Positions 35,045-39,489 of a stretch of 64,000 nucleotides of DNA are shown in pieces. Below the pieces are notes generated by a model. The model was not told where the DNA came from, made no database searches, and worked only from the letters and a program-made list of their open reading frames with translations. Both the position numbers and the translations under genes were made by a program. The stretch spans positions 1 through 64,000 of the forward strand of contig JAKAKJ010000023.1 of assembly GCA_021824575.1 (NCBI GenBank), given 5' to 3'. This stretch comes from Chloroflexota bacterium. GTDB lineage: Bacteria; Chloroflexota; Anaerolineae; Anaerolineales; Villigracilaceae. How positions within the stretch are numbered: position 1 is the first letter of the stretch; every line of letters begins with the position of its first letter.

Positions 35045-35980
35045 ATGGACAACGCTGTTAGCAACGAAGTGCGTTTTTTGCACGCGATTGAATTGGGATT
35101 GGGAGCCTGGTCGTGGGGCGACAGGGTGGTCTGGCAATATGGACGCGGCTACACCGACGATGACATTCGCCAGGCATTTCAGGCCTCCATCACAGAGGGA
35201 ATCCGTTTTATTGACACAGCCGAAGTCTACGGGTCGGGCCGCTCCGAACGCATGACCGGACAATTTCTCAAGGAGACCGACCAGCCCGTTTTGGTCGCGA
35301 CCAAATTCTTCCCGATGCCGTGGCGGCTGACAAAAGATTCAATTCCATCTGCGCTCAAACGCAGCCTTGACCGGCTCGGACTCGAGAAAGTGGATCTATA
35401 TCAAATCCATTGGCCGACACCGCTGCTTAGAATCGAACGGATGATGGAAGGCTTGGTAGCCTGCGTTGACAAAGGCTGGGCACGCGCGGTCGGTGTCTCA
35501 AATTTCGACCAGCCGCAAATGCTGCGCTCGTATTCCGCCTTGGAGCGAAAAAGTGTTCCGCTCGCGTCGAATCAAGTTCACTACAGCCTGCTCAATCGCA
35601 AAGTCGAAAAGAATGGATTGCTGGCGCGCTGCAAGGAGTTGGGAATACGCCTGATCGCGTATAGTCCGCTCGAAATGGGATTATTGACCGGCAAGTACAC
35701 CCCCGCGAATCCGCCGCCCGGCAGCCGCGGGGGACGATATGCAAGTCTGATCCAAAAATTAGCCCCGGTGCTCAAACTCATGACAGAAATCGGGCAGGAT
35801 CACGGCGGCAAATCCAACGCACAAGTTGCGCTGAACTGGGTAATATGCAAAGGCGCGTTACCCATCCCCGGCGCAAAGAATGCTGCACAAGCTTTACAGA
35901 ATGCGGGTGCGCTTGGATGGAAATTGACCGACGAAGAAATGGCAAAACTTGATGAAGTCAGCGACAAAACCGCTCAATAA
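35045..35980 (+). CDS. Aldo/keto reductase
   Basis: The 311-residue TIM-barrel oxidoreductase has the tetrad Asp and Tyr in RFIDTAEVYGSGRSE near residue 60, the Lys in VLVATKFFPMP, and the catalytic His in YQIHWPTPLL. The cofactor-binding segment at the end is GALPIPGAKNAAQALQNAG. It should reduce carbonyl compounds with NADPH; the substrate is unknown. The start at 35045 has GGAGG 5 bases upstream, while an earlier in-frame start at 35012 does not. Confidence 0.9.
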   Translation: MDNAVSNEVRFLHAIELGLGAWSWGDRVVWQYGRGYTDDDIRQAFQASITEGIRFIDTAEVYGSGRSERMTGQFLKETDQPVLVATKFFPMPWRLTKDSIPSALKRSLDRLGLEKVDLYQIHWPTPLLRIERMMEGLVACVDKGWARAVGVSNFDQPQMLRSYSALERKSVPLASNQVHYSLLNRKVEKNGLLARCKELGIRLIAYSPLEMGLLTGKYTPANPPPGSRGGRYASLIQKLAPVLKLMTEIGQDHGGKSNAQVALNWVICKGALPIPGAKNAAQALQNAGALGWKLTDEEMAKLDEVSDKTAQ

Positions 35981-36016
35981 AAACAGAAGCAAAATTTCTC
36001 CGATTCAGAATCTTTA

Positions 36017-36025
36017 TGCTATAAT
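36017..36025 (+). promoter_or_regulatory. Extended -10 promoter of the aspS-asnS leader
   Basis: TGCTATAAT is a perfect extended -10 element; the TATAAT box is at 36020-36025. Transcription should begin at about 36032, within a few bases of the leader ATG at 36035. No good -35 box is present, as is common for extended -10 promoters. Confidence 0.75.
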
Positions 36026-36034
36026 ACCGCCACC

Positions 36035-36121
36035 ATGAACGGCAACATCAGCTTCGCCAACAATAATAACAACGATAATGACGACAATTCGCATGTCGCT
36101 GGGCGAAGCTTTGCAGGTTGA
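36035..36121 (+). CDS. Asn/Asp-rich leader peptide of the aspS-asnS operon
   Basis: ATG at 36035 opens a 28-codon frame closed by TGA at 36119-36121. It begins MNGNISFA, and residues 9-18 are NNNNNDNDDN, ten consecutive Asn or Asp residues. In total 9 of 28 residues are Asn and 3 are Asp. The genes that follow encode aspartyl- and asparaginyl-tRNA synthetases, so the codons match the products. The ORF is too short for routine gene calling. There is no Shine-Dalgarno sequence and the promoter places the 5' end almost at the ATG, so translation is probably leaderless. Like the trp and pheST leaders, it should act by where the ribosome stalls. The peptide itself probably has no function. Confidence 0.85.
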   Translation: MNGNISFANNNNNDNDDNSHVAGRSFAG

Positions 36122-36171
36122 TAAAAAACCCAAGTCAAACCAATCGCCCGACGCCAATGCGTAGGGCGATT
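36050..36171 (+). promoter_or_regulatory. Ribosome-mediated transcription attenuator of aspS-asnS
   Basis: Four pairing segments are seen. Segment 1, AGCTTCGCC (36050-36058), just before the Asn/Asp run, is fully complementary to segment 2, GGCGAAGCT (36102-36110), just after it. Segment 2 overlaps GGGCGA (36101-36106), which can instead pair with TCGCCC (36144-36149) in segment 3. Segment 3 (AATCGCCC, 36142-36149) forms the terminator with segment 4. A ribosome stalled on Asn or Asp codons would cover segment 1, freeing segment 2 to hold segment 3 and prevent termination. A ribosome that reaches the stop codon would cover segment 2 and allow termination. A small hairpin CGACA/TGTCG (36082-36098) lies within the loop. 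The pairing is seen in sequence; the mechanism is inferred. Confidence 0.8.
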
Positions 36172-36179
36172 TATTTTGT
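36142..36179 (+). terminator. Attenuator terminator before aspS
   Basis: AATCGCCC (36142-36149) pairs with GGGCGATT (36164-36171). After one mismatch ACGC (36151-36154) pairs with GCGT (36159-36162) around loop CAAT. TTATTTTGT follows. It lies between the leader peptide and aspS, with no gene ending here, as expected for a conditional terminator. Confidence 0.85.
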
Positions 36180-36186
36180 ATATAGA

Positions 36187-36295
36187 ATGTCATTGCGAGT
36201 GGCACCTTGTCGCTACGCAGCAATCTCAAGCGACCTTCAAGAATTCGTTTGATGAGGCCAGGAGATTGCTTTGGGCTTCGCCCTCGCAACGACAT
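36187..36295. repeat. GTCATTGCGAG-type palindromic repeat
   Basis: ATGTCATTGCGAG (36187-36199) and CTCGCAACGACAT (36283-36295) are near-perfect inverted ends. Inside are CAGCAATCTC and GAGATTGCTTTGGGCTTCG. It is inserted between the attenuator terminator and the aspS ribosome binding site. Relatives lie at 15029-15122, 54991-55078 and 59806-59882. Confidence 0.8.
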
Positions 36296-36318
36296 ATAGC
36301 AAAATTTGGAGGCATCTT

Positions 36319-38088
36319 ATGTACAAAACTCATACCTGCGGGGAACTGCGAGTAGTTCATGCGGGGCAGAAAGTGACACTGGCCGGATGGGTGCATCGCC
36401 GCCGCGATCACGGCGGAGTGGTTTTCTTCGATTTACGCGACCGTTACGGAATTGTCCAAATCACCATTAATCCCGATGTTTCCAAAGAAACCTTGAACGT
36501 CGTTGCCGATGTTCGCTTCGAATGGGTCTTGCAAATTGTTGGCACCGTTCAAAAGCGGCCCGCCGGAATGGAAAACCCGAACATGGCAACCGGCGAAATC
36601 GAAGTCATCGCCAGCGAAATCAACGTTCTCAACCCCGCGAAAACTTTGCCTTTCATGGTCAACAACGGCGACACGAACGAAGCCGACGAAAACACGCGCC
36701 TCAAATACCGCTACCTCGACTTGCGCCGCGAGCGGATGCGGGAAAATATCATCCTGCGTCACCGCGTGATCAAATTTATGCGCGATTACCTCGATAAGCA
36801 AAACTTCATCGAAATCGAAACACCAATTCTCTTCAAAGCCACGCCCGAAGGTGCGCGCGACTATCTTGTTCCGTCGCGCGTGTACCCGGGCCAATTTTAT
36901 GCCCTGCCCCAGTCGCCTCAACAGTTGAAACAATTGCTGATGGTCGCGGGCATGGATCGCTATTTCCAGATCGCGCGCTGTTTCCGCGACGAAGACCAGC
37001 GCGGCGACCGTCAGCCCGAATTCACGCAACTCGATCTTGAAATGTCGTTCGTCCATCGTGACGACGTGCTGGCGATGGTCGAGGGTCTCTACACAGCGAT
37101 GATCCCCGCAGTCACACCGCACAAAAAAATTCTTTCGTCGCCGTGGCCGGTGCTTTCGTACACCGATGCCATCGAGAAATATGGATCGGACAAGCCCGAC
37201 CTGCGCTTTGGAATGCAGCTCATTGACGTGAGCGACGTTTTTGCAAAGAGCGACTTCCGCGTCTTTCAATCCGCCACTGAAGCGGGCGGCGTGATCAAGT
37301 GCATCGTCGCGCCTGACAGCGCGGATATGTCCCGCCGCGAAGTGGACGAGCTGACCGAAGTCGCGAAATCATTCGGAGCGAAAGGATTGGCTACTTTAGC
37401 GGTGACCGCTGAAGGTCCGAAAGGAACCGCTGCAAAATTCGTCAAGCCAGAGGAATTTGAAGCAGTCAAATCCAAAGTCGGAGCAAAGCAAGGCGATTTG
37501 ATTTTATTCGCCGCAGATCAACGCGCAGTCGTCAACAAAGTCCTCGGTGGATTGCGACTCGTTTTTCGCGATAAACTTGATTTAGCCGATAAAGATGTGA
37601 TGGCATTCGCCTGGGTCGTGGATTTTCCGATGTTCGAATGGAACGAGGAAGAAAAGAAATGGGATGCCGCGCATCATCCGTTCACGATGCCGAAGATGGA
37701 AGACCTGCCGAAGTTCGAAACGAATCCCGGCGAGATTTTTTCGGACGCGTATGACATGGTATGCAATGGTTATGAAATGGCGTCCGGCTCGATCCGCATC
37801 CATCGCCGCGACATTCAGTTTAAAATATTTCAATTGCTTGGTTTGAAGGACGAAGAAATTCAATTGAAGTTTGGTCACATGCTCGAAGCCTTTGAATACG
37901 GCGCGCCGCCGCACGGCGGCATGGCCCCGGGCATTGACCGGCTCGTGATGCTGCTGGCGGACGAACCGAACATTCGCGAAGTGATTGCCTTCCCGAAAAA
38001 CTCCGGTGCGCGTGATGTGATGGCCGACGCGCCGTCGTCTGTTGAGCCGAAACAATTGAAAGAATTGCATATAAAGATCGTTGAATAA
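36319..38088 (+). CDS. aspS: Aspartyl-tRNA synthetase
   Basis: The 589-residue class II synthetase has an N-terminal anticodon-binding OB domain (GWVHRRRDHGGVVFFDLRDR), class II motif 2 (FQIARCFRDEDQRGDRQPEFTQ, here split in words), the bacterial GAD insertion in the middle (about 290-410), and motif 3 near the end (GGMAPGIDRLVMLLADE). The bacterial-type layout and the presence of asnS downstream suggest an enzyme mainly charging tRNA-Asp. The ATG at 36319 has TTTGGAGG upstream; earlier in-frame starts fall inside the repeat. It is the first gene of the attenuator-controlled operon. Confidence 0.97.
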   Translation: MYKTHTCGELRVVHAGQKVTLAGWVHRRRDHGGVVFFDLRDRYGIVQITINPDVSKETLNVVADVRFEWVLQIVGTVQKRPAGMENPNMATGEIEVIASEINVLNPAKTLPFMVNNGDTNEADENTRLKYRYLDLRRERMRENIILRHRVIKFMRDYLDKQNFIEIETPILFKATPEGARDYLVPSRVYPGQFYALPQSPQQLKQLLMVAGMDRYFQIARCFRDEDQRGDRQPEFTQLDLEMSFVHRDDVLAMVEGLYTAMIPAVTPHKKILSSPWPVLSYTDAIEKYGSDKPDLRFGMQLIDVSDVFAKSDFRVFQSATEAGGVIKCIVAPDSADMSRREVDELTEVAKSFGAKGLATLAVTAEGPKGTAAKFVKPEEFEAVKSKVGAKQGDLILFAADQRAVVNKVLGGLRLVFRDKLDLADKDVMAFAWVVDFPMFEWNEEEKKWDAAHHPFTMPKMEDLPKFETNPGEIFSDAYDMVCNGYEMASGSIRIHRRDIQFKIFQLLGLKDEEIQLKFGHMLEAFEYGAPPHGGMAPGIDRLVMLLADEPNIREVIAFPKNSGARDVMADAPSSVEPKQLKELHIKIVE

Positions 38089-38145: not shown

Positions 38146-39489
38146 ATGCCAGAAATCATTCGTGTTGATGAAATTTCAAAATATGACGGTCAGGAAGTGA
38201 CCATTCAGGGCTGGGTCTATAATCGCACCGACAAAGGCAAACTGGTTTTCCTGTTGGTGCGCGATGGAACCGGCTTTGTTCAATGTGTAGCCTTCAAAGG
38301 CGATCTTGACGAGAAACTTTTCGATCAAGTGATGAGACTGCCGCAAGAGTCAGCAGTGGTCATCACCGGGCCCGTCCGCGCAGACAAACGCGCACCCGGC
38401 GTCCCCGGCGGATATGAAATCGGTGTGAAGAAAATCAAGATCGTGCAAACCGCCGACGCGGATTATCCGATGTCGCTCAAGGATCACGGTGTGGATTTTG
38501 CGCTCGACAATCGCCACCTGTGGATTCGGATGCCGAGTCAGTGGGCGATTTTGCGCGTCCGCTCGACGGTGATGGCGGCCACGCGCGAATGGCTCGACAA
38601 TAATGGCTTCATCGCGATGGATACGCCGATCCTGACTCCCGCCGCCGCTGAAGGCACGACCACACTTTTTGAAACTGAATATTTCGATGAAGGCAAAGCC
38701 TATCTTGCGCAGACCGGTCAGCTTTATAACGAGGCAAATATTTTTGCGTTTGGAAAAGTCTATTGCTTCGGGCCAACGTTTCGCGCGGAAAAATCAAAGA
38801 CGCGCCGGCATCTTACCGAGTTCTGGATGCTCGAACCGGAAATGGCTTTCTGCGATCTCGACGGTTTGATGGAAATCGAAGAGCAGATGGTCACGCACAT
38901 TGTCCAGCGCGTGCTTCGAGATCGAAAACCGGAATTGCTTTCGCTTGGACGCGATCTATCCAAACTCGAAAACATCAAAGCGCCGTTTCCACGCATTTCG
39001 TACGACGACGCGGCAAAGATGATCAATGAACTGCGCGAAAAAGAGACTGATCCCGAAAAGAAAGAATTGCTCAAATTCGATTGGGGAATTGATTTTGGCG
39101 CGCCGCACGAAACGGCCATCACACAACAATTCGATAAACCAGTATTTTGTTATGGTTACCCCACCGCGGTCAAAGCGTTTTACATGGAACCATGGCCGAA
39201 TAGACCTGAAGTCTGCAAGTCCGTTGATTTGCTGGCGCCGGAAGGCTACGGCGAAATCTGCGGCGGCTCGGAGCGTATCAGCGACCATGATTTGTTGCTC
39301 AAACGAATTCGCGAACAGAAACTCCCTGAAGAAGCATTCAAGTGGTATCTCGAATTGCGGAAATACGGTTCAGTTCCGCATTCGGGATTTGGCATGGGCG
39401 TGGAACGCGTCACATCGTGGATTTGCGGAATCGAACACGTGCGCGAGGCAATCCCGTTTCCGCGAACGATCAAACGCGTTTATCCGTAA
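38146..39489 (+). CDS. asnS: Asparaginyl-tRNA synthetase
   Basis: The 447-residue class II synthetase has an OB-fold anticodon domain (TIQGWVYNRTDKGKLVFLLV), motif 2 (CFGPTFRAEKSKTRRHLTEF) and motif 3 (FGMGVERVTSWICG). The EGTTTLFETEYFDEGKAYL segment and the C-terminal FPRTIKRVYP are typical of AsnRS. It charges tRNA-Asn directly, so this organism need not rely only on amidation of Asp-tRNA-Asn. GGAGG lies 7 bases before the ATG at 38146. The gap after aspS is short and holds only a repeat, so the two are one operon. Confidence 0.97.
   Translation: MPEIIRVDEISKYDGQEVTIQGWVYNRTDKGKLVFLLVRDGTGFVQCVAFKGDLDEKLFDQVMRLPQESAVVITGPVRADKRAPGVPGGYEIGVKKIKIVQTADADYPMSLKDHGVDFALDNRHLWIRMPSQWAILRVRSTVMAATREWLDNNGFIAMDTPILTPAAAEGTTTLFETEYFDEGKAYLAQTGQLYNEANIFAFGKVYCFGPTFRAEKSKTRRHLTEFWMLEPEMAFCDLDGLMEIEEQMVTHIVQRVLRDRKPELLSLGRDLSKLENIKAPFPRISYDDAAKMINELREKETDPEKKELLKFDWGIDFGAPHETAITQQFDKPVFCYGYPTAVKAFYMEPWPNRPEVCKSVDLLAPEGYGEICGGSERISDHDLLLKRIREQKLPEEAFKWYLELRKYGSVPHSGFGMGVERVTSWICGIEHVREAIPFPRTIKRVYP

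Follow-up and report, generated by a model that had tools for sequence, protein, structure and literature searches.

In this Anaerolineales genome the aspartyl-tRNA synthetase gene aspS appears to be preceded by a ribosome-mediated transcription attenuator, which probably governs asnS as well and would report the levels of charged tRNA-Asn and tRNA-Asp through a leader peptide whose mRNA is essentially leaderless, with a predicted 5′-UTR of 0-3 nt. We put the probability of this reading at roughly 0.86. Promoter spacing, absence of a Shine-Dalgarno (SD) sequence, a conserved ORF frame, a terminator and alternative pairings were established by sequence and comparison, using the window (the whole stretch of 64,000 nt that was analysed, from a 3.6-Mb genome bin of the Chloroflexota (Anaerolineales)) and 125 distinct Anaerolineales leaders upstream of aspS taken from relatives. 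The layout of the locus is given in Table 1. A 93-codon ORF on the minus strand (36014-36295) covers the whole attenuator and is most likely incidental.

Table 1. Elements of the predicted aspS attenuator and the genes that follow it, in window coordinates
Feature	Coordinates	Strand	Basis
Extended -10 promoter element TGCTATAAT, without a -35 hexamer	36017..36025	+	Sequence; no sigma-70 two-hexamer match
Predicted start site A36032 and 3-nt 5′-UTR (ACC)	36032..36034	+	7 nt past the -10 box; relatives
Leader peptide ORF, MNGNISFANNNNNDNDDNSHVAGRSFAG and stop, 28 codons	36035..36121	+	ORF list; in-frame Asn/Asp codon bias
Segment 1 (AGCUUCGCC), partner of segment 2	36050..36058	+	Perfect 9-nt inverted repeat with 36102-36110; naked fold
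Ten-codon Asn/Asp run (NNNNNDNDDN), predicted stall region	36059..36088	+	Translation
Segment 2: CGCUGGGCGA (partner of segment 3) and GGCGAAGCU (partner of segment 1)	36097..36110	+	Inverted repeats I4 and I6; folding
Segment 3 (UCGCCCGACG), 3′ arm of the predicted antiterminator and 5′ arm of the terminator	36144..36153	+	Inverted repeats, folding
Intrinsic terminator: hairpin 36142-36171, with segment 4 as its 3′ arm, and U-rich tail UAUUUUGUAU	36142..36181	+	dG -18.3 kcal/mol
aspS SD sequence GGAGG	36308..36312	+	Sequence
aspS, aspartyl-tRNA synthetase (bacterial type, RRRDHGG motif)	36319..38088	+	Sequence comparison
asnS, asparaginyl-tRNA synthetase, 57 nt 3′ of aspS	38146..39489	+	Gene listing

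Promoter spacing and absence of a Shine-Dalgarno sequence

Transcription usually starts 7 nt past the -10 box. Nine bases (ACCGCCACC) lie between the -10 box, which ends at 36025, and the leader ATG at 36035, and the predicted 5′-UTR is 3 nt long with a start at A36032 and 0 nt with a start at A36035. The space left after TGCTATAAT is too small for an SD sequence to precede the leader ATG. A scan of the window for two-hexamer sigma-70 promoters gave no match at the leader, which is what an extended -10 promoter would lead one to expect. Among the relatives, the box read TATAAT in 123 of the 125 leaders and TATATAAT in the other 2, and the TG of the extended element was present in 123. A comparison in which each genus, and each stray genome, was represented by a single sequence showed no variation in the -10 box and hardly any in the TG, with next to no information farther upstream. 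In the leaderless aspS leaders the six bases that follow the -10 box (36026-36031 and their equivalents in relatives) are 82% GC, compared to 58% at the same positions of the other leaderless-type promoters of this genome, and in this they resemble promoters under stringent control.

The distance from the -10 box to the leader ATG was bimodal over the 125 leaders, being 6-13 nt in 107 (9 or 10 nt in 77 of these) and 16-21 nt in 18, counts that lean towards ORFs with an ATG, Asn/Asp content and slightly short spacing, since the leader-finding script weighted these properties. Recurrence of the box and the short spacing before aspS in 107 of 125 distinct relatives argues that the distance seen in the window is not due to chance. 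Scored as GGAG, GAGG or AGGA, an SD core preceded the ATG in none of the short-spaced leaders and in all 18 long-spaced ones, where it was mostly of the form ...cTGAGGCAAGA-ATG. An SD core also stands before aspS itself in every one of the 125 relatives, which shows that SD sequences are in use in these bacteria. SD-led internal starts in the ORF frame were absent ahead of the Asn/Asp run in all short-spaced leaders (0/107). In both spacing groups the base 7-8 nt past the -10 box was mostly A, with a purine conserved, which would imply a 5′-UTR of 3 nt in 76, 0 nt in 18 and 4-7 nt in 6 of the 107 short-spaced leaders, and of 14 nt, from the same predicted start, in 11 of the 18 long-spaced ones. 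The two groups therefore seem to share the position of the start site, the long-spaced group having ~11 additional bases that include the SD. Translation of the leader from a leaderless mRNA, with a 5′ end predicted 0-3 nt before the ATG, is well supported by these comparisons. The initial annotation had proposed this on the ground that the extended -10 element ends at 36025, placing the start near 36032 and within 3 bases of the ATG; its coordinates were borne out, the start remaining a predicted one, and its proposal is well supported by the SD split between the two groups and by the conserved start purine.

The spacing of the aspS leader was also compared with that of other genes in the genome. 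The pattern TATAAT-N4..12-ATG occurred 236 times in the genome, compared to 58 times for the reversed control, with a spacing of 6-8 nt in 60 of the first 100 matches listed and a peak at 7. With N20..28 the counts were 174 and 71, respectively, and GGAG often lay ahead of the ATG. A gene-based count on the 736 long ORFs of an 852-kb sample (40 stretches and the window) gave the same peak, at 6-10 nt. These results show that genes of leaderless type, as judged from their spacing, are common in this Anaerolineales genome. Of 12 Chloroflexi genomes studied by Zheng et al., 4 were reported to contain leaderless genes, at ~5% of the genes there (PMC3160421), and in view of both observations the aspS leader is not odd for its genome. 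When the 852 kb were searched for additional attenuators of leaderless type that have a terminator, 21 candidates emerged, 20 of which had no codon run fitting their own gene. Because aspS alone has such a run, we do not claim a genome-wide set of attenuators.

Codon run, alternative pairings and predicted working

Asn and Asp codons made up 33.5% of the codons in the ORF frame of the 125 leaders, compared to 2.1% and 2.4% in the other two frames. Their third base was free, with AAT and AAC, and likewise GAT and GAC, mixed across the leaders, and the leader ATG and stop codon were conserved among relatives. This is the leader expected of a ribosome-mediated attenuator, a short ORF rich in codons for the amino acid handled downstream.

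Downstream of the codon run, a terminator equivalent with a T-rich tail was found between the leader ORF and aspS in 125 of 125 relatives. In the window, region 36032-36180 folds with a z-score of -4.8. The 9 nt of segments 1 and 2 are perfectly complementary, the pairing of segment 2 (36097-36106) with segment 3 has one C.A mismatch, and segments 3 and 4 make up the terminator hairpin. When the window RNA was folded up to segment 3 without a ribosome, the 1:2 pairing formed; with the 5′ part masked as if a ribosome occupied the first Asn codon, 2:3 formed, and masking of the ORF up to its stop codon gave the terminator. The stalled-ribosome fold yielded 2:3 in 101 of 116 relatives, so that, judged by folding, both the window and these relatives are predicted to possess an antiterminator that excludes the terminator and is set free when a ribosome occupies the codon run. 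The ribosome-free fold of the same 116 gave 1:2 in 54 and 2:3 in 51, so that not every relative has a clear default state. In 99 of the 125 leaders, no more than one shuffled sequence in 30 equalled the complementarity between segments 2 and 3. The 2:3 helix was 93% paired but did not exceed column shuffles in the covariation test; the segments are near invariant and show few compensatory changes, and since they hardly vary, covariation is mostly uninformative here and speaks neither for nor against the 2:3 pairing.

Between the terminator and aspS lies a palindromic repeat (36187-36295) of the type GTCATTGCGAG...GAAGCAATCTC...GAGATTGCTTCG...CTCGCAATGAC. Its core GAGATTGCTTCG is present in 10 copies in the 852 kb, with 0.1 expected, and similar repeats occupy the same position in five relatives (L002, L006, L011, L023 and L034); the element is REP- or MITE-like.

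For the aspS leader we infer a start site, translation, ribosome stalling and a regulatory response, which would be connected as follows. RNA polymerase would start at about A36032, and a ribosome would load at the 5′-terminal AUG once this had emerged. If Asn-tRNA or Asp-tRNA were scarce, the ribosome would stall within the codon run and cover segment 1, so that segments 2 and 3 would pair, the terminator would be blocked and aspS and asnS would be transcribed. With both charged tRNAs plentiful, the ribosome would reach the stop codon, segments 3 and 4 would pair and the transcript would end near 36180. If no ribosome loaded, 1:2 pairing would let the terminator form by default.

Two other explanations for the locus were weighed against this working. 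It is very unlikely, in our estimate, that the leader peptide, though real and attenuating, is translated in vivo mostly from a longer transcript, produced by read-through from the upstream aldo/keto reductase gene or by an unseen promoter. In favour of it, that gene ends at 35980, which leaves ~50 nt up to the predicted start, and no plus-strand terminator was found in this interval; an in-frame, SD-led start that a longer transcript could use lies upstream of the promoter in six of the 107 short-spaced leaders. However, with no SD before any of the 107 ATGs, the leader on such a transcript would depend on SD-less internal initiation, which would be inefficient. The most conserved element is, besides, the extended -10 at its fixed distance, whereas the sequence upstream of the -10 is not conserved and differs even in the close relative L002. 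Still less credible is a terminator under the control of a protein or a metabolite, in which translation would play no part and the Asn/Asp ORF would be incidental. A terminator with an alternative pairing would suit any antitermination device, but the frame-specific Asn/Asp codons with their synonymous variation, like the conserved ATG and stop, would have no place in it, and Rfam covariance models gave no match in the window at the gathering threshold, including T-box and known riboswitch families.

We give more weight, while still considering it doubtful, to an attenuator that senses only one amino acid, Asn or Asp. Most genera have more Asn than Asp codons in the leader, and asnS is the next gene after aspS in the window, both of which would suit such a device. 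Against it, leaders of every genus contain Asp as well as Asn codons, and the g8 genomes retain the Asn run even though their asnS lies at a distance of ~10 kb or on a different contig. The synthetase itself also bears on this question. The position at which AspRS enzymes read RRRDHGG or RRRDLGG helps to separate non-discriminating from discriminating forms. The RRRDHGG of the window AspRS is common to solved enzymes named Aspartate--tRNA(Asp/Asn) ligase, while the best-matching solved AspRS has RRRDLGG, unlike the window enzyme. Since GatB is also present, the predicted AspRS may charge both tRNA-Asp and tRNA-Asn, which would explain a leader with codons for both amino acids also in genomes with a distant asnS, such as those of g8. 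Sensing of both charged tRNAs is the reading that we retain.

Other features of AspRS and its leaders varied among relatives. For genera g11, g16, g19 and g25 no asnS match was listed and the Asn/Asp runs were shorter; Asn-tRNA may be made there by AspRS and GatCAB. Genus g14 has two aspS copies (G018:C10 and G095:C23; L014, L212, L204 and L215), each with its own Asn/Asp leader of leaderless-type spacing. The AspRS proteins of G007, G018, G021, G010, G111, G113, G030 and SKYG130 carry GWVHNFRTFGG or a similar sequence where the N-terminal domain otherwise has GWVHRRRDHGG.

Initiation modes on the AspRS tree

The two initiation modes were mapped onto a tree built by a quick method from 74 AspRS proteins. 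They needed six changes, at least four of them forced by well-supported branches; the count does not give the direction of the changes, and transfer of the aspS gene could contribute to it. Genus g23 holds both modes, as TATAAT-ACCGCCC-ATG and TATAAT-ACCGCCCATTGGAGCAAAA-ATG, two versions that differ by ~10-14 nt between the start site and the ATG. Within a single bacterial family, one orthologous attenuator has probably changed its initiation mode, leaderless or SD-led, about six times while keeping its promoter, codon run and terminator. If so, the initiation mode would be interchangeable in a regulator whose ribosome and polymerase must be tightly coupled, and a natural experiment on this coupling would be at hand in the clade. 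The orthologous leaderless and SD-led switches allow one to ask whether the mode of initiation matters for attenuation, and the same pairs bear on how a leaderless gene acquires an SD sequence. The suggestion in the initial annotation that a leaderless leader would require a different way of synchronising ribosome and polymerase found no support, as the same attenuator exists in leaderless and SD-led form with the remaining architecture unchanged.

Relation to known attenuators

In the Escherichia coli trp, his and pheST attenuators an SD-led leader peptide precedes a set of segments 1 to 4. The aspS leader resembles them in having a predicted protector, antiterminator and terminator made of such segments, and differs from them in that their leader peptide is SD-led. 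An SD sequence had at first been taken as a property of all known attenuation leaders; this was wrong, for SD-less ones have been published for Corynebacterium, Streptomyces, Sinorhizobium and Mycobacterium. The leader peptide of C. glutamicum ilvBNC is, according to Morbach 2000 as cited in PMC4046766, made without a ribosome binding site, and this three-hairpin attenuator with leaderless initiation shows that the attenuation model already handles leaderless loading (PMC11857589). It shares with aspS an SD-less leader peptide, but serves the branched-chain amino acids and a biosynthetic operon in Actinobacteria. For Streptomyces lividans, the available text of PMC8079986 describes SD-less leaders of leuA, leuS, trpE, trpS, ilvB, thrS and metN. 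Those of leuS, trpS and thrS come close to the aspS leader, with a leaderless leader peptide and cognate codons before an aminoacyl-tRNA synthetase gene; they differ in being specific for Leu, Trp and Thr, with few codons and a terminator that was not always found, and the same text reports neither an aspS/asnS case nor a series of SD-led orthologues. In Sinorhizobium meliloti the trpL attenuator RNA begins at the ATG of the leader ORF (PMC7298713), much as predicted for aspS, but trpL responds to Trp and precedes a biosynthesis gene, and its attenuated RNA and peptide also act in trans. The mycobacterial polycysteine ORFs, as quoted from Canestrari 2020 in PMC9031893, are likewise leaderless short ORFs with a codon run, through which amino-acid supply regulates downstream genes; they read Cys and are described there as acting on downstream translation, in contrast to the predicted intrinsic terminator output at aspS.

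An aspS leader RNA has been predicted in Shewanella, with no Asn/Asp leader peptide reported in the part of PMC2659441 consulted. Our literature search, which covered subscription journals thinly and does not prove priority, returned no aspS/asnS leader-peptide attenuator and no case of attenuation in Chloroflexi. As far as the literature searched shows, the Asn/Asp specificity before aspS, the occurrence in the phylum Chloroflexota and the repeated switching of mode in one orthologous element are new. To the leaderless attenuators known from Actinobacteria and one alphaproteobacterium, the predicted aspS leader would add the Chloroflexota as a phylum, Asn and Asp as the amino acids and aspS as the gene.
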